Below, in pieces: positions 4,924 through 27,618 of a stretch of 64,000 nucleotides of DNA. A model generated the notes under the pieces. It did no database searches. It saw only the letters and a program-made list of their open reading frames with translations, and was not told where the DNA came from. How positions within the stretch are numbered: the stretch's first letter is position 1; each line of letters opens with the position of its first letter. A program made the translations under genes and the position numbers. Source of the DNA: Cyclobacterium xiamenense (GTDB lineage Bacteria; Bacteroidota; Bacteroidia; Cytophagales; Cyclobacteriaceae); the NCBI RefSeq assembly GCF_009467825.1, contig NZ_WIOK01000011.1, forward strand, positions 62,001 through 126,000. The letters are read 5' to 3'.

Positions 4924-4962
4924 AAAGGGCTATCCAGAAACAGTGAGGATAGCCCTTTTTTT
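4924..4962 (-). terminator. Terminator at the end of the his operon
   Basis: A perfect 12-bp stem (4924-4935 with 4947-4958; arms begin AAAGGGCTATCC) encloses an 11-base loop directly after the hisB stop codon. The longest T run (4956-4962) is on the plus strand. On the minus strand only a short T stretch within the stem follows, so the hairpin may work in both directions. Nothing is transcribed toward it from the left. Confidence 0.75.
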
Positions 4963-6061
4963 ACAACGATCCCTTGGTACTGGGAAGCTGATCCAGGGCT
5001 TGAAGGTCTTGGCGCACGGCCATTTTGATAGCTCTGGCGAACCCTTTAAAAATGGCTTCGATCTTGTGGTGTTCGTTTTCGCCTTCGGCTTTGATATTCA
5101 GGTTGCATTTGGCGGTATCGCTGAAGGACTTGAAGAAATGGTAAAACATTTCCGTCGGCATATCACCGATTTTTTCGCGCCTGAAGGTTGCCTCCCAAAG
5201 CAGCCAGGGTCTGCCGCCAAAATCCACCGCTACCTGAGCCAGGCAATCGTCCATAGGTAGTAAAAACCCGTAGCGGTAGATTCCCTTTTTGTCGCCCATC
5301 GCCCGAAGATACGCTTCTCCGAGTGCAAGTGCCGTGTCCTCGATGGTATGGTGCTCGTCGATGTGCAGGTCACCCACTACCTGTATATCCAGGTCGGTAC
5401 TTCCGTGTTTGGCCAATTGGTCCAACATGTGATCAAAAAACGGCAGACCGGTATGAATGCAGCTCTTTCCCGTACCATCCAGGTTTAGCTCGATGGCTAT
5501 TTGCGTTTCTGCGGTAGTCCGGGTCACGCTGGCTTTTCTTGCAGGCACTTTCAGAAAAGCGTACAACTCGTCCCAGGACGCCAGGCATAGGTCGGCTTCA
5601 GCGTATGGCTCCTCGTTAAAGTAGATGGATTTGCAGCCCAGGTTTTTGGCTAGTTGAACGTCCGTTTGTCGGTCTCCAATCACGTACGAATTCGCTAAAT
5701 CGTAGTCGCCATTCAGGTAGGAGAGGAGCATGCCCGTTCCGGGTTTGCGGGTGGGAGCGTTTTCATGCGGAAATGTTTTGTCAATGTGAATCGCGGAAAA
5801 AACAACCCCCTCCTGTTCCAGGGTTTTGAGCATTTTGTACTGTGCCGGCCAAAAAGTCTCCTCTGGAAAAGAGGAAGTACCCAGGCCGTCTTGATTACTT
5901 ACGAGTACCAACTCGAAGGCTCCCTCTTCGGCAAGCTTACTCAAATTAGTAATCGCCCGGGGAATAAACTCGAGCTTTTCCAGGCTATCTACCTGAAAAT
6001 CCGTCGGAGGCTCCTTGATGATGGTGCCATCCCGGTCAATAAATAGAACCTTTTTCTTCAT
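4961..6061 (-). CDS. hisB: Bifunctional histidinol-phosphatase / imidazoleglycerol-phosphate dehydratase
   Basis: A 366-residue fusion that carries out the sixth and eighth steps of histidine synthesis. Residues 1-165 form a HAD-type phosphatase with the nucleophile motif DRDGT at 9-13 and the late motif [12 protein letters not shown]. Residues 175-366 form the imidazoleglycerol-phosphate dehydratase, with the metal-binding pairs [10 protein letters not shown] and [12 protein letters not shown]. The Cys zinc ligands of the enterobacterial phosphatase loop are absent (the loop reads [15 protein letters not shown]). It is the last gene of hisGDCB, nine bases after hisC, with a terminator at its stop codon. 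Confidence 0.96.
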
Positions 6062-6070
6062 GCCTAATCG

Positions 6071-7150
6071 TTAGTTTTCTAAACCGGATGCAATGGGTGT
6101 GGCGAGTATTTCCTGCAGAGCACGGATAAATTGCTCGTTTTCTGCCTTGTTTCCCACGGTAATTCGCAGGCAATCACCGCAGTGGTATACGCCAGAGCGA
6201 TCACGAACGATGATTTTCTTAGTAATCAACTGCTGGTATACCGATTTTGCATGGGGAACTTTTACCAAAAAGAAATTGGCATGTGAGGGATAGACTTTTT
6301 CTACACCCGCCGTTTTCTCCAGCTGCAGCCGAAGTTGTTCCTTCTGCACCCGAATCTCTTCGATCATCTGCTCCAATTTGTCGGTATTGCCGAGTGCCTT
6401 GATGACGGTGGCTTGAGTTAGTCCGCTGATGTTATAGGGCGGCTTGATTTTGTTGAGAATGGCGATAATTTCCCTGGAGGCGAATGCCATCCCCAATCGA
6501 AGTGCTGCCAATCCCCAGGCTTTGGATAGGGTTTGCATGACCAACAGGTTGGGAAATTCATCCAAAGCGTGAATAAAGCTGGGCTCGTCACTAAAATCGA
6601 TGTAGGCCTCGTCTACGACCACCAGGCCTTGAAATCCCCGCAGTACGGTCAGAATGGACTCCCGCAACAGTTTATTTCCGCTGGGATTATTGGGTGAGCA
6701 GATAAAGATGATTTTGGTAGCTGCCGTTACGGCTGCTAAAACCTCCTCCGGGTTCAGTTGAAAATCCGGTGTCAGCGGTACTTTCCTGACAGGCACATCG
6801 TTGATACCGGCACTTACTTCATACATGCCATAGGTGGGAGGCATGATGATTACGTTGTCAATACCCGGTCTGCAGAAGGCGCGGAACAAGAGATCAATGG
6901 CTTCATCGCTGCCATTTCCAAGAAAAATGCGTTCGCTGGATACGTTTTTTATGTCGGCGAGTTTTTGTTTGAGCTGGGATTGATAGGGGTCTGGGTACCG
7001 GTTATATGCCTGGCCGGTGATGGATCCCAGAGGGTTTTCGTTGGCATCCAGGAAAATACCCTCGTTTCCACTGTATTCGTCGCGGGCAGAGGAGTAGGGT
7101 TTCAGTGCGGCGATGTGGGGACGCAAAAGCTGTTGCAGATCAAAACTCAT
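6071..7150 (-). CDS. hisC: Histidinol-phosphate aminotransferase
   Basis: A 359-residue fold-type I PLP enzyme that converts imidazole acetol phosphate and glutamate to histidinol phosphate. Visible landmarks are the N-terminal LDANENPLG, the cofactor loop GNGSDEAIDLLFRAF, CSPNNPSGN, the Asp-Tyr pair VVDEAYIDF, the PLP lysine in TLSKAWGLAALRLG and the C-terminal RITVGNKAENE with its substrate Arg. The length is normal for the family. It lies two bases after hisD and nine bases before hisB, so translation is probably coupled along the operon. Confidence 0.96.
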   Translation of the reverse strand: MSFDLQQLLRPHIAALKPYSSARDEYSGNEGIFLDANENPLGSITGQAYNRYPDPYQSQLKQKLADIKNVSSERIFLGNGSDEAIDLLFRAFCRPGIDNVIIMPPTYGMYEVSAGINDVPVRKVPLTPDFQLNPEEVLAAVTAATKIIFICSPNNPSGNKLLRESILTVLRGFQGLVVVDEAYIDFSDEPSFIHALDEFPNLLVMQTLSKAWGLAALRLGMAFASREIIAILNKIKPPYNISGLTQATVIKALGNTDKLEQMIEEIRVQKEQLRLQLEKTAGVEKVYPSHANFFLVKVPHAKSVYQQLITKKIIVRDRSGVYHCGDCLRITVGNKAENEQFIRALQEILATPIASGLEN

Positions 7151-7152
7151 TG

Positions 7153-8445
7153 TTACTTGCGGTTGGCGAGGTAATCTAAACGGACGGTAACGGCACGCTT
7201 ATGGGCTTCCAGGTTTTCGTGTTGCGCCATTACTTCGATGGCGGGACCCAGGGACCGAATTCCTTCGGCGGTGATTTTCTGGTACGTGATTTTCTTCACA
7301 AAACTATCCAGCGAGACGCCGGAATAACTTCGCGCGTACCCGTTGGTAGGCAGGGTATGATTGGTGCCCGATGCGTAATCTCCCGCCGCTTCGGGGGTGT
7401 AATTTCCGATAAACACCGATCCGGCATTCACGATTCCCTGCACGGCTCGTTCCTCTTCTTTCACCGCTAAAATGAGGTGTTCGGGTGCGTAGGCATTGAT
7501 CAGGTCAAGGGCATCTGTCATCTTTTCCATGACGATTGCGACGCTGTTTTCCAATGCCTTTTTGGCAATTTTTTGTCGAGGAAGTTCTTTGAGTTGCTCC
7601 TCCACAGCCGCCAGTACTTTTTTTGCAAACTTTTCACTTGGACATACCAGGACCACCTGACTATCAACCCCGTGTTCGGCCTGCGAGAGCAGGTCGGCAG
7701 CGACAAAATCCGGGATAGCAGTATCATCGGCATAGACCAGTACCTCTGAGGGTCCCGCCGGCATGTCGATGGCTACTCCCTGTCGGGTAGCCAGCTGCTT
7801 TGCAGCGGTGACGTATTGGTTGCCCGGACCGAAAATTTTGTCCACCTGGGGTACCGAGGCAGTTCCATAGCACATGGCAGCAATGGCCTGGGCTCCGCCA
7901 GCCTTGACTATTTTCGTTATTCCAATTAGGGAAGCCGTATAGAGGATGGCGGGGTGAACCGCTCCCTGGGGGTCGGGGGGGGTGCACAAAACAATTTCCT
8001 GACATCCGGCCAACTTTGCCGGAATGCCCAACATCAATACGGTGGAAAACAGGGGGGCGGTGCCGCCGGGGATATACAAGCCCACTTTTTGTATGGCGAC
8101 ACTTCGTCTCATGCAGGTGACTCCCTGCATGATTTCCGAACTTATTGCGGGCATTTCCTGCAGCTTGTGAAATTTTTCGATGTTATACCGGGCCGTTTGG
8201 ATGGCATCTTTCAGTTCGGTACGCAGTTTTGCGCCGGCAGCATTTCTTTCGGCATCTTCTACCAACAAGGAGTCAATTTCCACATGATCGTATTCCAGGG
8301 CAAACTTCTTAAGGGCTTTGTCCCCCTGACGTTTGACCTTCTTCATGATTGGTTTAACGATCTTTTCGATTTCCTTCATTTTATGAACGGGCCGGGCCAG
8401 CTCTTTATTCCAGGTTTTCGTATCGGGATTGATCAGGATTTTCAT
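7153..8445 (-). CDS. hisD: Histidinol dehydrogenase
   Basis: A 430-residue zinc enzyme that performs the last two NAD-dependent oxidations of histidine synthesis, from histidinol to histidine. The sequence contains the family blocks GLYIPGGTAPL, KIFGPGNQYVTAAKQ, IDMPAGPSEVLV, DLLSQAEHG with the catalytic Glu-His pair, and NAYAPEHLIL. The length matches other HisD proteins. It follows hisG after a 92-bp gap, the largest spacing inside the operon, and nearly touches hisC. Confidence 0.96.
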   Translation of the reverse strand: MKILINPDTKTWNKELARPVHKMKEIEKIVKPIMKKVKRQGDKALKKFALEYDHVEIDSLLVEDAERNAAGAKLRTELKDAIQTARYNIEKFHKLQEMPAISSEIMQGVTCMRRSVAIQKVGLYIPGGTAPLFSTVLMLGIPAKLAGCQEIVLCTPPDPQGAVHPAILYTASLIGITKIVKAGGAQAIAAMCYGTASVPQVDKIFGPGNQYVTAAKQLATRQGVAIDMPAGPSEVLVYADDTAIPDFVAADLLSQAEHGVDSQVVLVCPSEKFAKKVLAAVEEQLKELPRQKIAKKALENSVAIVMEKMTDALDLINAYAPEHLILAVKEEERAVQGIVNAGSVFIGNYTPEAAGDYASGTNHTLPTNGYARSYSGVSLDSFVKKITYQKITAEGIRSLGPAIEVMAQHENLEAHKRAVTVRLDYLANRK

Positions 8446-8537: not shown

Positions 8538-9398
8538 TCAAATGACCATTTTTTCAATGGGCACTACCAGGATTCCCTGAGCGCCCGCCGCCCGTAATTC
8601 TTCAATGTTTTCCCAAAATTGATCCTCGCTAATAACCGAGTGTACGGAAGACCATCCCGCTTCCGCCAGGGGTAGAATGGTCGGACTGCGCATTCCGGGA
8701 ATCAGTGAAACAATCGTATCCAGGGAGTGGTTCGGAGCATTCAGCAGCACGTACTTGTTTTTCTTTCCTTTCTGTACCGCGTCCATGCGAAACAGTAGTT
8801 TTTGTACGATTTGTTGCTTTTCCCCGGACAGGCCCCGGTTGCTGATCAATACAGCCTCGGATTGGAAAATTTCCTCTACTTCCTTTAGTCCATTCATCAT
8901 CAGGGTAGAGCCGGAACTTACGATGTCGCAAATGCCTTCGGCCAGGCCGATGCTCGGGGCGATTTCCACCGATCCACTTATCTCGTGAATTTCTGCCTGT
9001 ACCTGCTGGGTCTTGAGGTAGTCCCCCAGTATTTTCGGGTAGGAGGTGGCAATGTTTTTTCCCTCAAAATACTGGATCCCGGGGTAGGTTTCACTCTTGG
9101 GAATGGCCAGGGATAGCCGGCATTTGGAAAAGCCTAGCTTTTTCAAAACGGTCACGTCCTTGTCTTTTTCTACCAGCTCGTTTTCTCCCACAATACCCAA
9201 ATCGGCAACGCCGTCTGCTACGTAGCCAGGAATGTCATCGTCTCTCAAAAAAAGAAACTCAATAGGAAAGTTGGTGGCGGTGGATTTCAGTTTTCCCGTG
9301 CCGTTGTAAAATTTTATTCCACACTCTTTGATTAGTTTAAGCGATTCCTCACTTAACCGCCCGCTTTTCTGAACAGCTATTCGAATACTATTTTCCAT
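8538..9398 (-). CDS. hisG: ATP phosphoribosyltransferase, long form
   Basis: The 286-residue committed enzyme of histidine synthesis, joining ATP and PRPP. It is the long, self-regulated form: a periplasmic-binding-protein-like catalytic domain to about residue 210, with the PRPP loop near SSGSTLMMNGLKEVEEI, then a C-terminal ACT-like domain (about 215-286) that binds histidine for feedback inhibition. No hisZ is therefore needed. The ATG at 9398 begins about 88 bp after the end of a His-rich leader peptide (hisL), so expression is probably set by attenuation as well as by feedback. Confidence 0.96.
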   Translation of the reverse strand: MENSIRIAVQKSGRLSEESLKLIKECGIKFYNGTGKLKSTATNFPIEFLFLRDDDIPGYVADGVADLGIVGENELVEKDKDVTVLKKLGFSKCRLSLAIPKSETYPGIQYFEGKNIATSYPKILGDYLKTQQVQAEIHEISGSVEIAPSIGLAEGICDIVSSGSTLMMNGLKEVEEIFQSEAVLISNRGLSGEKQQIVQKLLFRMDAVQKGKKNKYVLLNAPNHSLDTIVSLIPGMRSPTILPLAEAGWSSVHSVISEDQFWENIEELRAAGAQGILVVPIEKMVI

Positions 9399-9465
9399 GG
9401 ATTACTGATACACTGGTGAATAAATTTTTTAGAGAGGCGAATCGATCGACTGGCACGATCCTTCT

Positions 9466-9497
9466 AAAAAGATCGCATCCGGGATTTAAGCGGAATG
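9466..9497 (-). terminator. Putative attenuator hairpin in the his leader
   Basis: On the transcript the last His codon and following bases (CATTCCG, 9497-9491) can pair with CGGATG (9481-9476), leaving one bulged base, followed after CGATC by five U residues (9470-9466). The 5' arm lies inside the leader reading frame, so a ribosome stalled or moving there could control folding. The hairpin is short and the U tract modest; this is a prediction by eye. Confidence 0.45.
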
Positions 9498-9575
9498 ATG
9501 CCCTGCATGATGCCAACAAGCAGTTGCTGCGTGGAAAAATGAATAGGTATGGCAATTGCTCCCGGAGATTTTCAT
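9486..9575 (-). CDS. hisL: Histidine operon leader peptide, 6 His in 29 residues
   Basis: A 29-codon open frame from the ATG at 9575 to the TAA at 9486. It encodes His at positions 9, 15, 22, 23, 26 and 27, with two HH pairs near the end. It lies between a consensus promoter and hisG. The ATG starts only 7 bases after the -7 box, so the message is leaderless or nearly so. This is the classic layout of a transcription-attenuation leader: scarce charged tRNA-His would stall the ribosome at the His pairs and change folding of the downstream hairpin. The peptide itself probably has no function after synthesis. A longer frame covering the same bases (9388-9669) has no recognisable features. Confidence 0.85.
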   Translation of the reverse strand: MKISGSNCHTYSFFHAATACWHHAGHHSA

Positions 9576-9582
9576 AACGATG

Positions 9583-9614
9583 CAAATTTAATGAGCGATC
9601 GCCAACAAGCAAAA
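9583..9614 (-). promoter_or_regulatory. Promoter of the his operon
   Basis: Minus strand: TTTTG at 9614-9610, a 19-bp spacer, then TAAATTTG at 9590-9583. Both boxes and the spacing match the Bacteroidota primary-sigma consensus (TTTG, about 19 bp, TAnnTTTG). The predicted start of transcription falls next to the hisL ATG at 9575. Confidence 0.85.
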
Positions 9615-9635
9615 TAAAAACGGGATTACTAACGC

Positions 9636-9662
9636 AAAAAAGAGGCTCCAACCGGAGCCTCT
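9636..9662 (-). terminator. Rho-independent terminator after the GluTR-like gene
   Basis: A perfect 9-bp stem (9654-9662 with 9641-9649, sequence AGAGGCTCC) with a four-base loop, followed on the minus strand by six T residues. It separates the GluTR-like gene from the his promoter that starts about 20 bp further on. Confidence 0.9.
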
Positions 9663-9721
9663 CTATCAATAAACCAACCTAACCAAAAAATTATTCGTAT
9701 TATTCCCGCATCTATAAAAAG

Positions 9722-10966
9722 TTAATTGTACAGAAAAAACTCATTAACAAGACGCTGGTAACTGACAAGATCCTTGTAAGGGGTGTGGTTTCGGATTTTA
9801 TCAATCGATTTTTCCAACACCTGTTTATACCCCTGATCCGAGAGGATTTCCTTTTTTACCCGAGGTTTTTGGACGGTTATCACCTTAGGAAAGGGGGGCT
9901 CCAACTCCTCGCCCGGCATCAGGAGAGCCTTTGCCTCCTCGAGAATTTCTTCCGCTTTTTTTTTATCCAGCCAGTGGAAAAAGTGTTTGCTTTGCTGTAC
10001 AAGCAGCGGCTTTACTTTTTTCAACCAGCTTTTGTTTATTTCCATTTTGCCTTCGATCACCTGATAGATGTCCGCAAGTTCAAAAAAGACCACTTGAGAA
10101 TGCGATTGCAGCGAATGGATCAATTCGCTTTTTACCGCCAGGTCAATAAGTATTTTCACGGAGGAAAAACTGGTATTGAAATAGTCGGTAACGATTAGGT
10201 CTTCACCATTCTCCAGCGTGGAAATTAAAATATCATTTTCCCGGATTACATTTGACAGTTGCTCAAAGGGCTCGTAAATAAATTGCTTCAATTCCGAGCC
10301 CCGAAGGTTACCAAATGGCTGAATGCTTTTTTCTACAATCACGATTCGTTCAAATCCCCGGCTTCGTAGGTTTTGGTAAACCTTTTTGCCCATGGCGTTG
10401 AAACCGAGAATTGCGATTTTGGGCTGTTTGATTTTTTTCACCAATTCGGCGACCATGTCCGCTACCGTGAAAGAAACCGAAAACGACGGTGCCTGGTAAC
10501 TCACCTCTTTGCTTAAGTAGGCGTCGGTGCGCTGCAAAAAGCCTTCCCATTCGCTTAGAAGCGTGCCTTTTAATCCTGCTTGCCCGGAGAGGTCAAATGC
10601 CTCTAAAAACTGAGGATATAGCGGTAAGGCGCCATACGTGGTGGCCTGAACGCCAAAGCACAACTCAGAAAGATGGGTAAGCGCGCTTTCCTCGTTGCAG
10701 TTTTGCTGAAAAACATTTTTTTCCGGAAGGTATAGGCCGGTTTTTATTTTTCGAAGGGCCGCGTATATCTCGTCCTCCTGTGGCCCGGCACTGTAGTAAA
10801 GGATTTCGGTTCTCTCGGGGGTAGACACGACCAATGCTTCGGACAGGTCGCAGCACTGCCTAACTTCTTCCAATAATTCCCTTGACTCGGCCTGGGTCAA
10901 CAGGAAGCTGTTTTCCTGATTTTTTTGAAATCCTGCGCTGAAACTCAATAACCTGAACTGTCCCAT
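9722..10966 (-). CDS. Glutamyl-tRNA reductase-like protein lacking the catalytic Cys
   Basis: A 414-residue protein whose layout follows glutamyl-tRNA reductase (HemA): an N-terminal catalytic-like domain to about residue 150, a Rossmann-like domain (IAILGFNAMGKKVYQNL, from about 184) and a helical C-terminal part. Key sites are changed. The signature STCNRTE reads STPERTE, so the nucleophilic Cys at position 50 is Pro. The second signature, normally GLDSMVLGEPQIL, reads GVQATTYGALPLYPQF. The dinucleotide loop GxGxxG is also altered. Reduction of glutamyl-tRNA therefore looks unlikely. It is a single-gene unit with its own terminator. It may be a degenerate paralogue that regulates or binds haem-pathway components; a true hemA should exist elsewhere. 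Confidence 0.7.
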   Translation of the reverse strand: MGQFRLLSFSAGFQKNQENSFLLTQAESRELLEEVRQCCDLSEALVVSTPERTEILYYSAGPQEDEIYAALRKIKTGLYLPEKNVFQQNCNEESALTHLSELCFGVQATTYGALPLYPQFLEAFDLSGQAGLKGTLLSEWEGFLQRTDAYLSKEVSYQAPSFSVSFTVADMVAELVKKIKQPKIAILGFNAMGKKVYQNLRSRGFERIVIVEKSIQPFGNLRGSELKQFIYEPFEQLSNVIRENDILISTLENGEDLIVTDYFNTSFSSVKILIDLAVKSELIHSLQSHSQVVFFELADIYQVIEGKMEINKSWLKKVKPLLVQQSKHFFHWLDKKKAEEILEEAKALLMPGEELEPPFPKVITVQKPRVKKEILSDQGYKQVLEKSIDKIRNHTPYKDLVSYQRLVNEFFLYN

Positions 10967-11822: not shown

Positions 11823-12842
11823 TCAATACGCCCACCGTTTGGCAAGTTGGACCAGCGAAAGCATGATCGGTACTTCAATCAGCACGCCTACTACCGTCGC
11901 CAGTGCCGCACCCGAACTCAACCCAAACAAGGCGATGGCGACCGCCACGGCCAACTCGAAGAAATTACTGGCACCGATCATGGAGGCCGGAGCGCATACC
12001 CGGTAGGGTAGTTTCAGGTACCTGCCCGCCACCCAACTCAGAAAAAAGATGAGGTAGGTTTGCAGGGCTAATGGAATGGCGATCAAAAGAATGTGCTGGG
12101 GTTGGGCAATTATCTGCTCGCCTTGAAAAGCAAAGAGCAAAACCAGCGTAGTCAATAAGGCAAAAATAGAAAGCGGTTTTAGTTTTGGTAAAAATTTTGT
12201 TTTCAGCCAGTCCGCTCCCTTTTTCTGGATCAGCAGCCGGTTGGTTAGGTAGCCCGCCACCAGTGGAATAAGGACGAATACGATTACTGAGGTGACCAGC
12301 ACGTCGTAGGGGATTTGGAAATCGGTAATGCCCAACAATAATTGTACGAGGGGAACAAAAGCTACCAATAGAATAAGGTCATTGACGGATACCTGTACCA
12401 GGGTGTAAGTGGGATCGCCATTGCTCAGGTAGGACCAGACAAATACCATGGCCGTGCAGGGGGCGGCTCCCAATAAAATGGCCCCGGCAATGTATTGGTC
12501 TGCTTGTTCGGGTGTTAGCCAGGCGCTGTACACCTGGTCAAAAAATATCCAGGCAAAAAAGGCCATGGTAAATGGTTTTACCAGCCAATTGACGACTACT
12601 GTCAGCCCCAGCCCCCTGGCATTCTTTCCAACTTTTTTCAACGAGCTGAAATCCACTTGCACCATCATGGGATAAATCATTAACCAGATAAGTGCCGCTA
12701 CCGGAATGTTTACATGTGCGATTTCCAGGGAGGAAAGGTAGCTCATGTTTTCTCCAAAAATAGCACCGATGCCGATACCTGCTGCAATGCAAAGTATCAC
12801 CCAAATCGTTAGGTATTTTTCAAAAAAGCCGATTTCTTTCAT
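11823..12842 (-). CDS. acr3: Arsenite efflux pump, ACR3 family
   Basis: A 339-residue inner-membrane carrier with about ten helices that exports arsenite using the proton gradient. The conserved Cys of the fourth helix is present (GAAPCTAMVFVW, C129), as is the conserved Glu of a late helix (GASNFFELAVAVAI). It is the last gene of the apparent operon arsR-arsM-arsC-acr3, separated from arsC by 208 bp that hold a GC-rich hairpin. Working with the other products it would remove arsenite produced from arsenate. The length and topology are typical of ACR3. Confidence 0.95.
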   Translation of the reverse strand: MKEIGFFEKYLTIWVILCIAAGIGIGAIFGENMSYLSSLEIAHVNIPVAALIWLMIYPMMVQVDFSSLKKVGKNARGLGLTVVVNWLVKPFTMAFFAWIFFDQVYSAWLTPEQADQYIAGAILLGAAPCTAMVFVWSYLSNGDPTYTLVQVSVNDLILLVAFVPLVQLLLGITDFQIPYDVLVTSVIVFVLIPLVAGYLTNRLLIQKKGADWLKTKFLPKLKPLSIFALLTTLVLLFAFQGEQIIAQPQHILLIAIPLALQTYLIFFLSWVAGRYLKLPYRVCAPASMIGASNFFELAVAVAIALFGLSSGAALATVVGVLIEVPIMLSLVQLAKRWAY

Positions 12843-12935
12843 CCATTTTTGCGTTTGGTGTGTGTTTGTTACCTGTTTTTCAATGCCTTGTTCTGATGCC
12901 TGCGCGTTGTTTCACGGCATTACCGTTAGGAATAG

Positions 12936-12976
12936 CCCGCCCCTCCGGCAACGTTTACCGACGTGAACGGGGCGGG
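12936..12976. repeat. GC-rich hairpin between arsC and acr3
   Basis: An 8-bp perfect stem (CCCGCCCC at 12936-12943 with GGGGCGGG at 12969-12976) around a 25-base loop. No T run follows on the minus strand, so it is more likely an RNA processing or stability element than a terminator. Confidence 0.5.
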
Positions 12977-13050
12977 GATGCCGGGATCGACCTTCTTTGC
13001 ACCGTACAACATCGTGCAGAAAACCAATGCTCGCTACAATCCGGCGGGTA

Positions 13051-13818
13051 TCAGGAATTGACCCGGGACATTATATAAAACATTTCGGTAGCGATTTGAC
13101 GCGTGCGTTCGTCGTAAACCTCGGCTTCTTTGGACGTTCCATCTGCCTCCTTTGGATCCACGTAGGGGATGGGTAAGCGGAGGGATGCACCCGGGATGAA
13201 GGGACAATTTTTATCCGCATCCGAACAGGTCATGATGGCAGCAAAATTTTCAGAAGCGTTAAATGGATCGTCGTATTTTTTAGAAAAACATTCGATTACC
13301 TGTCCTTGATCTGAAAAGCTCACCATGTAATGCGGATTGTCTCCTGTTGTGTGGTTTACCCGGAAACCAGCACGTTCAATGGCAGCTACTGCCCTGGGAT
13401 TAAATGCCGTGGTCTCGGTACCGCCGGAATACGTATGAATTCCTTCCTCCAGCCCGTAATACGCGGCGGCTGTCGCCGCCCAAATCTGGCTTAGGTGACT
13501 TCGTCGGCTATTGTGGGTGCAGATAAAGGTAAGGTTTGCCGGTTCGTTGGCTTGCTTTTTTTCCCGCACAAACAAGGCAACCTCCTGCAGCAGTTCCTTT
13601 CGATCTTCAGGAATAGCCGCCATATCGGGAAGGAGGGATTGTACGTACTGGGCCAATTCGGGGTACAGGGCTGATGTTTCGGTTGTGTTTTCAGTAGACA
13701 TGGTGACTTGAATTGCGTTGATTTCGGATACGTTCATGGCCTGGTTCTTCTTTGTTGAAGGCGTACAGCCAAGAAAGAAGGCGATAAGAAATAATGAAGG
13801 TATGGTGGATTGGCTCAT
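13051..13818 (-). CDS. arsC: ArsC-like low-molecular-weight phosphatase, possible exported form
   Basis: A 255-residue protein with the CX5R loop CTHNSRRS of thioredoxin-linked arsenate reductases and low-molecular-weight tyrosine phosphatases, and a later Cys in AIMTCSDADKNCPF. These would reduce arsenate to arsenite for methylation by ArsM or efflux by ACR3. From the ATG at 13818 the protein begins MSQSTIPSLFLIAFFLGC, which looks like a lipoprotein signal, although it has no positive charge and the lipobox is imperfect. A second start at 13701 (MSTENTTETS) gives a 216-residue cytoplasmic protein of normal family length. The gene follows arsM after 25 bp. The choice of start decides location. 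Confidence 0.8.
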   Translation of the reverse strand: MSQSTIPSLFLIAFFLGCTPSTKKNQAMNVSEINAIQVTMSTENTTETSALYPELAQYVQSLLPDMAAIPEDRKELLQEVALFVREKKQANEPANLTFICTHNSRRSHLSQIWAATAAAYYGLEEGIHTYSGGTETTAFNPRAVAAIERAGFRVNHTTGDNPHYMVSFSDQGQVIECFSKKYDDPFNASENFAAIMTCSDADKNCPFIPGASLRLPIPYVDPKEADGTSKEAEVYDERTRQIATEMFYIMSRVNS

Positions 13819-13843
13819 TACTGTTTGTGTTCGGTGTAAAACA

Positions 13844-14728
13844 TTAGCAACAGCCCGTTCCTTCCTGGCAGGAGGCAGCTTGCTGGGTTGAAAAACGTGT
13901 TTCCTTGCTTTCGTCGGTAGCTCCTGGCTTTTCTGCATAGACGGTAATGCTGTAAATGCCGGTTCCTCCCTGGTTAAACGCCATTAGCTCCTCTGGCCGG
14001 AGGTATTTTCCCAAAATGTCTTCGGGAATGGAAATGGACTTTTCCTTTTGGAGGCGGATGTTTTGAAATCCAGCTTGCTTTATGTGCTGGAGGTAGCTGT
14101 CTTTTTGAATCGCCCCAGCCACGCATCCGGCATACATTTCGGCATCTTCGTTCAGGGCTTCGGGAAGTACGCCCATCAATACGATATCGGAGATACTAAA
14201 GTGACCGCCCGGTTTCAATACCCGGAAAATTTCCCGGATTACCTTTTCCTTATTGGGAACCAGGTTGAGCACGCAATTGCTGACTACTACATCGGCTACT
14301 TCCTCATTTACGGGCATGTTGTCGATATCGCCTTCCCGAAATTCCACGTTGTTATAGCCCATTTTTTCTGCATTGCGTCGTGCTTTTTGGACCATGGCGG
14401 GGGTAAAGTCGATTCCGATCACTTTTCCTTCCGGTCCGGTTTCGTGTCGGGCCACAAAACAATCGTTTCCTGCGCCGGAACCCAAATCGATGACGGTATC
14501 GCCTTTTTTGATTTTGGCAAATTGGGTAGGCAGGCCGCATCCCAGACCGAGGTCGGCTGCTTCCACGTAACCTTTCGTTTCGGAATAATCTTCCATCATG
14601 ATGTTGTAAACCTTATTCGAAGGGGTCGTGGCTCCGCAGCACGAGGCGGCGTTGGTGGTTTTTTCCTGTGTTGCGATTTGCGCGTATCGCGCTTTTACTA
14701 TGTTTTTTAATTCCTGATCGTTGCTCAT
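13844..14728 (-). CDS. arsM: Arsenite S-adenosylmethionine methyltransferase
   Basis: A 294-residue cytoplasmic enzyme that methylates arsenite stepwise using S-adenosylmethionine. The SAM motif [13 protein letters not shown] starts near residue 81. Three Cys positions fit the arsenic-binding set of ArsM: C64 (GLGCGLP), C152 (SNCVLNL) and C202 (YAGCVAGAI). An N-terminal pair C30-C31 and a Cys-rich tail ending GTGCC are also present. It is the second gene of the arsenic operon, 37 bp after arsR and 25 bp before arsC. Confidence 0.94.
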
Positions 14729-26482: not shown

Positions 26483-27598
26483 TCAGAGGGTATCTAAAAA
26501 GGCAAGGAAGCGTTTTTTTTCTTCTTCCCAGCTTACTTCGTTGCCGGGAGGCTGTTGGTAAAACTCCATGGACGTGAAGCGCTGCCAGGTCTCGGCGATG
26601 TCCAGGTGATCCAAAAAGTCGACTTCCATACCGGCCGGATAGGAATCCATCAGGGCCTTCCATACCGGATTGCATGAGATCAAAAGGGGTTTCTGCCGGG
26701 CGATTCCCTCGTACAATTTGGTGGGGATTTTGGCGGCAATACTTGGCAGTAAGCGGTAGGGCAAGAGTAGTACATCGGCATCCTGAATGCGTTGTTCAAT
26801 CCAGCTGCCTGGGACGGGGTTTGCGGAGAGATGCAGGTGGATTTGTGGGTGGCTGCTCGCTTCGTGCCGGAGCTGTTCGGCAAAGCCTCGCAGGGGGCAG
26901 TGTCCCAGGATTTCCAGGCGTGCACCGGGCAGTAGTTCGGCGAGTTTACTAAACCAGCGGACGGCATCTAGCGTGCCATATGCCTCCGTGATGGTGCCCG
27001 TAATCAATAATTTTGGGGCTGTTGGCCGAGCTAGTTTAAACGGTGGCACCTGACCAAGTGGTTGCACGGCCTTGTTTTCGAGCACAAGGGCCCGTTTTAA
27101 CTTGGGCATTTCCCGAAGGTAACAAGCTTCTGCTAGGAGATGTGCGTCTACAAATGGACGGGTCGTAGTTTCCGCTATCCAAACCAGTGCCTCTGCCATG
27201 GGGCGGATCAGGGCTGGCAGGCTGTGGTTGTAGCGAATATTCTTCCGGTAGTTTTCCTGAACGTCGTAAATAAGTCGGTAGCCGAGTAGCCATTTTCCAA
27301 GCATGCCAGCCGGTAACAGCTCAAAAGTGGTGACAATCAGGAGACGAGGTTTGATACGAAAAAGATGAAAGAGAAACGGGAAGGATACCAGAATTCGGGC
27401 GGGGTGCATCCTGGATTTGGAAAAAATTTCGATAAAACGGATATTTTTTATTTTTGGCGTTTTTTTTGAAGAAAAACCTATGATGTTTAGGTGGTATTTA
27501 TTTGTTTCACGCATTGAAAATCCCAGCTTATGCAACATTCTGGAATCGTCTACAGGTTTGAGGACGGAAGCTATGGCTACCGGGATTTTTTTGCGCAT
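26483..27598 (-). CDS. Glycosyltransferase, GT4-like
   Basis: A 371-residue GT-B type glycosyltransferase. The N-terminal half carries the acceptor domain (DVQENYRKNIRYN). The C-terminal half shows the donor-binding strand KLLITGTITEAYGTLDAV, then ADVLLLPYRLL and PTKLYEGIARQKPLL, in which a Glu equivalent to the conserved E-x7-E second Glu is seen. The start at 27598 (MRKKIPVAI) is preferred to an ATG at 27613, because a perfect -7 box ends only six bases before the latter. The sugar is unknown; surface polysaccharide synthesis is likely. It stands alone, divergent from dapD. Confidence 0.8.
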   Translation of the reverse strand: MRKKIPVAIASVLKPVDDSRMLHKLGFSMRETNKYHLNIIGFSSKKTPKIKNIRFIEIFSKSRMHPARILVSFPFLFHLFRIKPRLLIVTTFELLPAGMLGKWLLGYRLIYDVQENYRKNIRYNHSLPALIRPMAEALVWIAETTTRPFVDAHLLAEACYLREMPKLKRALVLENKAVQPLGQVPPFKLARPTAPKLLITGTITEAYGTLDAVRWFSKLAELLPGARLEILGHCPLRGFAEQLRHEASSHPQIHLHLSANPVPGSWIEQRIQDADVLLLPYRLLPSIAAKIPTKLYEGIARQKPLLISCNPVWKALMDSYPAGMEVDFLDHLDIAETWQRFTSMEFYQQPPGNEVSWEEEKKRFLAFLDTL

Positions 27599-27618
27599 AG
27601 TAGTAAGAACCATTCAAA

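Follow-up and report, generated by a model that had tools for sequence, protein, structure and literature searches.

The histidine biosynthesis operon of Cyclobacterium xiamenense lies on the minus strand of the window, by which we mean the whole 64,000-nucleotide stretch of contig NZ_WIOK01000011.1 that was analyzed. Four genes follow one another in the order hisG, hisD, hisC-type aminotransferase, and hisB. The first, hisG (8538..9398), matched PF01634 (6.5e-53) and PF08029 (1.1e-26), hisD (7153..8445) matched PF00815 (8.7e-166), and the aminotransferase gene (6071..7150) matched PF00155 (7.2e-62), its name hisC being taken from its position in the operon. The last gene, hisB (4961..6061), is of the two-part type and joins an N-terminal phosphatase-like portion (PF13242 and PF08645) to the IGP dehydratase (PF00475, 1.4e-60). 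Among the matches listed, the closest named relatives of the HisG protein, at 89-92%, came from species of Cyclobacterium and from one metagenome bin of that genus. The gene upstream of hisG (9722-10966) has a weak glutamyl-tRNA-reductase signature and is followed on the same strand by a terminator-like hairpin (9664-9639) that lies ahead of the his promoter. At 11823-14728 (minus strand), neighboring genes resemble an arsenic cluster, presumably encoding a permease, a phosphatase-like reductase, and a methyltransferase with CC motifs, to judge by their translations.

The his promoter is of the Bacteroidota type, with TTTTG as the -33 element (9610..9614, minus strand), a 19-nt spacer, and TAAATTTG as the -7 element (9583..9590, minus strand), after which seven bases (9576..9582) lead to an ATG at 9575. 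A first-pass annotation of this DNA had given the same promoter, spacing, and seven-base gap, all of which were as read. The ATG opens a frame of 29 codons (9486..9575, minus strand) that ends with TAA at 9488-9486 and encodes the peptide MKISGSNCHTYSFFHAATACWHHAGHHSA, with His codons at positions 9, 15, 22, 23, 26, and 27; the frame, the number and positions of its His codons, and its place between promoter and hisG were confirmed by reading. Codons 22, 23, 26, and 27 (9495..9512, minus strand) are located 2-7 codons ahead of the last sense codon and are the likely regulatory ones. Between the leader stop and hisG lies an untranslated spacer (9399..9485, minus strand) that has more C than G and is rich in YC dimers, and which we propose as a Rho-loading region.

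Because TAnnTTTG is located at -12 to -5 in F. psychrophilum, according to an excerpt of PMC9723704, transcription of the his operon is predicted to start near 9578, which would leave a 5′ UTR of about 3 nt before the leader ATG. The earlier statement that the peptide is translated from the extreme 5′ end of the mRNA therefore stands as a prediction from the position of the -7 box. Short or absent 5′ UTRs account for a small share of messages in the excerpts available for the phylum, with about 3.7% of 5′ UTRs shorter than 10 nt in B. thetaiotaomicron (PMC7366714) and 5.5% leaderless messages in F. psychrophilum (PMC9723704). In the window, the box occurs within 10 nt of the ATG in one of 56 genes. 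That gene (26483-27613, minus strand, 376 aa), in which TAnnTTTG is 5 nt from the ATG, is a candidate leaderless message.

Conservation of the leader frame and of its distance to the promoter

Several sets of hisG loci were compared. The genus sample comprised 12 of 12 genomes, C. xiamenense included, the family sample held hisG loci from 57 of 60 same-family genomes, and the phylum sample held 82 further genomes of the 103 with a match among 118 (29 as loci and 53 by stretches). Out of 150 drawn hisG loci, 126 encoded a HisG at least 42% identical to that of the window. Counts of His clusters were made on 125 of them (L086 was omitted, with too little upstream sequence), and counts of terminators and the tree on 121 (L025, L057, L087, L100, and L102 were omitted, having no cluster of three His). 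For L025 and L093, in which no start codon lies close to where hisG should begin, the expected position was used. Automatic calls were replaced by box-anchored ones for the his leaders of L149 and L155, and were corrected for the trp leaders of L240 and L241. From the loci with a named source, 80 of 135 were kept and 79 were analyzed, L231 being left out; all but two of the 79 came from genera that NCBI lists under Cyclobacteriaceae or were titled Cyclobacteriaceae bacterium, the exceptions being Rhodonellum and a Cytophagales bacterium.

In all 12 genus genomes, the TTTTG element is at the same place, the -7 box is identical, and the ATG and a frame of 29-31 codons are retained with a His-His pair near its end, followed by one or two more His after one or two residues. 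The first-pass annotation had named loss of the His frame in relatives that keep the promoter and hisG as the observation that would speak against a leader; box, spacing, and frame were instead kept in 12 of 12. The distance from box to ATG is exactly 7 nt in every genome and the bases of those 7 nt vary, for which reason the near-leaderless layout of the his leader is probably under constraint. The number of His codons ranges from 3 to 7, with just three in four of the 12 leaders. Among the eight leaders of 29 codons, differences at codon positions 1, 2, and 3 numbered 211, 270, and 269, with no concentration at the third position. In the sequences compared, the frame and its distance to the promoter are held within the genus and the peptide is otherwise not.

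Six His codons in 29 had been described as far above chance, a view that shuffling upheld. When the 240 nt ahead of hisG were dinucleotide-shuffled 5000 times, no shuffle had a short ATG frame with six His codons, and the best reached five, in 12 of the 5000. In the wider set, we defined a His cluster as at least four His among 12 consecutive open codons no more than 230 nt from hisG, with no start codon required. Such a cluster preceded hisG in 107 of 125 genomes. None of the 125 reverse complements had one, nor did any of 24 genomes in which HisG identity fell below 42%, and among 2500 shuffles it arose in 147. When the cut-off was lowered to three His, clusters were present in 119 of 125 genomes, 11 of 125 reverse complements, 823 of 2500 shuffles, and 11 of the 24 genomes with a distant HisG. 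The proposal of a His-codon leader peptide ahead of hisGDCB is borne out by the frame in every genus genome and the clusters in these 107. A short frame with clustered codons for the operon's own amino acid, the mark of amino-acid-operon leader peptides, was found here, and this frame very probably serves the cell as a sensor of histidine shortage.

The position of the box was also followed outside the genus sample. Among the 79 named loci, which are not independent of the genus genomes as several share identical leaders, the box lies 6-10 nt ahead of the start in 76, and no box was found in the other three. In a second clade, with the family code f21, all 13 his leaders have TAnnTTnn, a loosened and permissive form of the box, 4-5 nt before a GTG (11 leaders) or ATG (two leaders); the strict box is present in six of the 13, and in two (L043 and L113) an in-frame upstream ATG was skipped in favor of the GTG that fits the box. 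With this spacing, the start codon itself would be approximately the first base of the message in f21.

Terminators in his and trp leaders

An intrinsic terminator had been read into the end of the leader, formed by a hairpin with five U residues (9466..9513, minus strand). The U5 exists (9470-9466); the hairpin is weak, with -3.3 kcal/mol for the stem 9501-9475 and -6.5 kcal/mol for the longer stem 9513-9475, ends four bases ahead of the U5, and is not conserved. Neither stem was listed by a terminator scan of 9300-9800, and the hairpin is absent from the minimum free energy (MFE) structure of the leader. The MFE and centroid structures contain a competing hairpin, CGATCTTTTTAGAAGGATCG (9456..9475, minus strand, -6.5 kcal/mol), that encloses the U5. 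Both hairpins use base 9475 and are hence mutually exclusive, and the competing one was not seen in the genus sequences inspected by eye. The leader RNA was not clearly more stable than shuffles (z of -1.51 for 122 nt and -0.09 for 178 nt), and RNAalifold on 18 family leaders, run to look for a covarying antiterminator, gave only three pairs, with the spacer aligning poorly; we did not count this as evidence. Rfam covariance models (4227 families, E up to 5) returned seven matches in 9300-9800, none of them to an amino-acid leader.

A terminator was counted as strong at -12 kcal/mol or better with at least five T in eight, and the search covered each locus from the last 25 nt ahead of the leader stop through the first 20 nt of hisG. 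By this measure, no his leader had a strong intrinsic terminator in the 12 genus genomes or in the 79 named loci. The attenuator with an intrinsic terminator, as first proposed, is not upheld, its hairpin reaching -6.5 kcal/mol at most and having no strong counterpart in any of the 12 genomes. The scan is able to detect terminators, since Trp-codon leaders before trpE scored a strong one in 29 of 30 family loci, the C. xiamenense genome included (L260 belongs to this set; L257 has no such leader). At trpE in C. xiamenense (L241 1309-1356; C29), the Trp leader MKQTNQIWWWLSYFF has a terminator of -17.9 kcal/mol with T7, and a box, TATATTTG, lies 9 nt ahead of its ATG. An intrinsic terminator as a conserved part of the his leader was rejected on the genus comparison and this positive control.

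Comparison of the two leaders genome by genome showed a terminator-less his leader in 19 of the 30 trp genomes, and 18 of these, C. xiamenense among them, had a trp terminator; nine had a terminator in both leaders and two had no usable his leader. In f21, a trp terminator was present in 14 of 14 genomes and a strong his terminator in 0 of 13, with 13 genomes common to both counts. As read from their sequences, these genomes rely on terminators at trp but not at his. The covariance model of the Bacteroid-trp RNA (RF01692) matched one of 59 relatives and did not match the C. xiamenense genome, despite its clear Trp leader. Candidate leaders rich in Ile, Val, and Leu were also seen at ilvD (L264, L267, and L273; for example, MSLLVSILSIVVVLIVVPTPAYG) and candidate Phe-rich leaders at pheA (L295 and L298; for example, MKAHNTFFYFYYFFSAPAGL), with a box 17-28 nt before the start; they were found in few genomes, and only box-anchored frames were listed, so their absence says little. 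Homoserine dehydrogenase loci were left out, as the match falls late in the gene and the start lay beyond reach.

Across the 121 drawn genomes with a leader, a strong terminator was found in 50 and none in 71. The 52 genomes with a box within 10 nt comprised six with a strong terminator and 46 without, and the other 69 comprised 44 with a terminator and 25 without. Those 44 make the earlier wording, which spoke of the phylum as one where the leader appears leaderless, too broad, and 17 of them carry the window's own family code. A link between a near-leaderless start and a missing terminator is strong in these raw counts but bound to clades, and we do not claim it: in a HisG tree with 121 rows, seven changes of terminator state leave just four supported independent pairs, too few to judge this link, or one between terminator and skew, beyond clades. 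A near-leaderless start was rejected as the cause of the missing terminator, given nine trp leaders that have the box 4-9 nt before the start and terminators as well, and the C. xiamenense trp leader with its box at 9 nt and its terminator. The two traits are separable, because six genomes have a strong terminator at a his leader whose box lies within 10 nt of the start, and near-leaderless trp leaders have terminators.

Composition of the spacer

Untranslated RNA that is rich in C and poor in G is the signature expected of Rho loading, and Rho is encoded in the C. xiamenense genome (PF07497, 1.3e-33). Genus spacers had a C/G ratio of 1.98, with C exceeding G in 12 of 12, and their mean (C-G)/n was 0.095 vs -0.003 (sd 0.068) for 36 upstream regions of the window, including that of hisG. 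The spacer of the window itself, with 21 C and 16 G, has the lowest C/G ratio in the genus. Its 88 nt before hisG contain 17 YC dimers, tied for the most among the 36 upstream regions, and the C excess of the hisG upstream region is surpassed by five of the 36.

In f21, the spacer had a C/G ratio of 4.27 (about 4.3) with 5% G, and C exceeded G in 13 of 13 loci. The controls for this clade gave 0.95 in the 80 nt around and above the promoter and, in 11 loci, 0.87 for the stretch from trp terminator to trpE; the ratio over the initial 80 nt of hisG was 1.33, with C exceeding G in 13 of 13. Terminator-less loci of the window's family had a spacer ratio of 1.63 (C over G in 45 of 51) vs 0.82 upstream (19 of 52), and terminator-type loci had 0.91 before the terminator (14 loci long enough) and 1.41 after it (25 loci). 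Skew and terminator do not split cleanly, as 20 of 50 terminator-type genomes exceed a cut of 0.05 and 17 of 71 terminator-less genomes do not. The combination sought for a Rho-type attenuator, no strong terminator together with a C-rich, G-poor stretch, was found in strong form in f21, in moderate form in the genus, and in weak form in the window. For the terminator-less types, the composition of the spacer circumstantially suggests Rho-dependent attenuation.

Proposed mechanism, alternatives, and related systems

We propose that hisGDCB is governed by a histidine-sensing leader peptide, with Rho, rather than an intrinsic hairpin, most likely ending transcription ahead of hisG, and we judge the chances of this proposal to be about even. 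Rho is preferred because the skew of the spacer fits the loading signature. Transcription would start about 3 nt before the leader ATG, and a ribosome would be loaded right at the 5′ end or directly beside it. With ample His-tRNA, the ribosome would pass the His codons, reach the stop at 9486, and depart, leaving naked the 87-nt spacer with its excess of C over G, where transcription would be halted before hisG, most likely by Rho. With scarce His-tRNA, the ribosome would wait at codons 22-27, just ahead of the stop, so that termination would not occur and polymerase would reach hisG. We infer the start site, the stalling, the role of Rho, and the blocking of termination by the stalled ribosome from sequence features. 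A point against Rho is that a ribosome at codons 22-27 would cover just the first bases of the spacer.

Alternatively, the locus could be a classical attenuator, in which the hairpin ending at 9475 with its U5, or another hairpin, terminates transcription once the leader is finished, a stalled ribosome favors an alternative structure, and the terminator has diverged beyond recognition in relatives. The window does contain a hairpin with five U at four bases' distance and a second one that excludes it through base 9475, strong terminators are found in 50 of 121 his leaders and in the trp leader of C. xiamenense, and some genus members have a hairpin with a moderately U-rich tail (for example, CATTTATTTTC in L146, by eye). 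We nevertheless regard a classical attenuator as unlikely, although it deserves serious consideration, given that the window's hairpin reaches only -6.5 kcal/mol and stands four bases from the U5, that the scan of 9300-9800 lists none, that nothing at -12 kcal/mol or better was found in any of the 12 genus genomes or 79 named loci, and that the 178-nt leader did not exceed shuffles in stability.

It is also conceivable, though distinctly improbable, that control is exerted after initiation through mRNA structure, a stalled ribosome altering the folding at the hisG start or shielding the mRNA from decay with no premature termination. Among the 50 terminator-less loci with HisG identity of 64% or more, which include the 12 of the genus, 26 have a hairpin of -5 kcal/mol or better enclosing the leader stop, vs 88 of 500 shuffles; such a hairpin need not be a terminator. 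Within the genus alone there is no enrichment (3 of 12 vs 24 of 120 shuffles). Such leader-peptide modes are known, according to excerpts on the LEU element (PMC1262725) and toiL (PMC12121999). The hisG start lies about 87 nt from the leader stop, and occlusion of it was rejected, with no sign in the 12 genus genomes, where it is unpaired to about the same degree as leader and spacer (0.55 vs 0.52). As for a frame that is rich in His by chance, or that encodes an unrelated small protein and no regulator, the lack of conservation outside the His codons among the eight 29-codon genus leaders would suit it; we consider it very improbable in view of the His clusters before hisG in 107 of 125 genomes, the frame and spacing kept throughout the 12 genus genomes, the 0 of 5000 shuffles, and the parallel Trp-rich leaders before trpE, along with Ile/Val/Leu- or Phe-rich ones in some genomes.

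The proposal of a leader peptide acting through Rho may extend to two separate groups of Bacteroidota, namely those members of the window's family that lack a terminator, and f21. Both would combine a leaderless or near-leaderless leader peptide with a Rho attenuator for histidine, the trp attenuators of these genomes being intrinsic, and the spacing from box to start would be held because the ribosome must load at the emerging 5′ end. We put this forward tentatively, as somewhat short of an even chance. If true, loading at the 5′ end would let translation be coupled to Rho control in a phylum whose initiation is not Shine-Dalgarno-led. The locus offers a conserved Bacteroidota regulatory frame that apparently starts at the 5′ end of its message, in a phylum where leaderless messages are rare, and sets attenuators with a terminator beside ones that lack it within single genomes. 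It makes testable both ribosome loading without Shine-Dalgarno pairing and a part for Rho in the amino-acid attenuation of this phylum.

The leader of the enterobacterial his operon is a short frame rich in His codons before hisG and responds through ribosome stalling. The window shares with it the His-codon frame ahead of hisG and the idea of stalling, but has no match to an Rfam amino-acid leader and no conserved intrinsic terminator, and its start codon is predicted to lie near the 5′ end, whereas that of enterobacteria lies behind a ribosome binding site. In tnaC-type leaders, Rho termination in the spacer depends on a ribosome near the leader stop. The signal there is an inducer at the stop codon, unlike the lack of His-tRNA at sense codons that is proposed for the window. 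Mycobacterial cys frames resemble the window in having cognate codons near the stop and no conserved terminator, and their leaderless starts have a predicted counterpart in it. Canestrari 2020, to go by its title, is reportedly a later test of leaderless Cys-codon frames upstream of these operons. In an excerpt of PMC1262725, mycobacterial cys operons are described with Cys codons just before the stop, no conserved terminator, and pyrimidine-rich spacer motifs, and Rho is proposed as a weak prediction. The same excerpt names tnaC-type leaders, with which the window would share the decision on Rho in the spacer by a ribosome near the stop, Rho being proposed here. Cys-rich upstream frames are discussed among leaderless transcripts in an excerpt of PMC4633059. 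The mycobacterial case differs in phylum, amino acid, and operon, and leaderless transcripts are common there, as the title of PMC4633059 indicates, but rare in Bacteroidota.

Within the phylum, the Bacteroid-trp RNA (RF01692; PMC2864571, from its Table 1) is likewise an amino-acid operon element, and differs in that its model misses the C. xiamenense trp leader. Excerpts of PMC9723704 report, for F. psychrophilum, strong clues for leader-peptide attenuation ahead of amino-acid operons and a new structured element without Rfam match upstream of hisG, which is found in other Flavobacteriaceae genera too. This element is like ours in phylum and gene. Among the full-text, largely open-access literature matches listed, no report of a near-leaderless or terminator-less his leader in Bacteroidota was found. 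Leader-peptide attenuation and a hisG 5′ element in flavobacteria are known, and the near-leaderless, terminator-less version for histidine looks like a new one.

Other arrangements were seen at his leaders in the sample. The family coded f6, which we guess to be Flavobacteriaceae, has, unlike the window, a strong terminator in 10 of 10 his leaders and the box 11-45 nt before the start in six of the 10; three of the others have no box, and one has it within 10 nt. In three f6 loci (L048, L055, and L089), the complement GTACTCAA of the terminator stem GTTTGAGTAC recurs just before hisG, and a third pairing partner may exist there. In four loci (L007, L015, L022, and L028), a hairpin, UUCCUCC UAA GGAGGAA, encloses the leader stop after a final His-His-Ser-Ser. 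Five loci (L007, L008, L012, L016, and L072) share a conserved stretch, CCAAAAT ... ATTTTGATA.TAAACGTATATTGCA, 0-60 nt before hisG, and this stretch holds the inverted repeat CAAAAT/ATTTTG.
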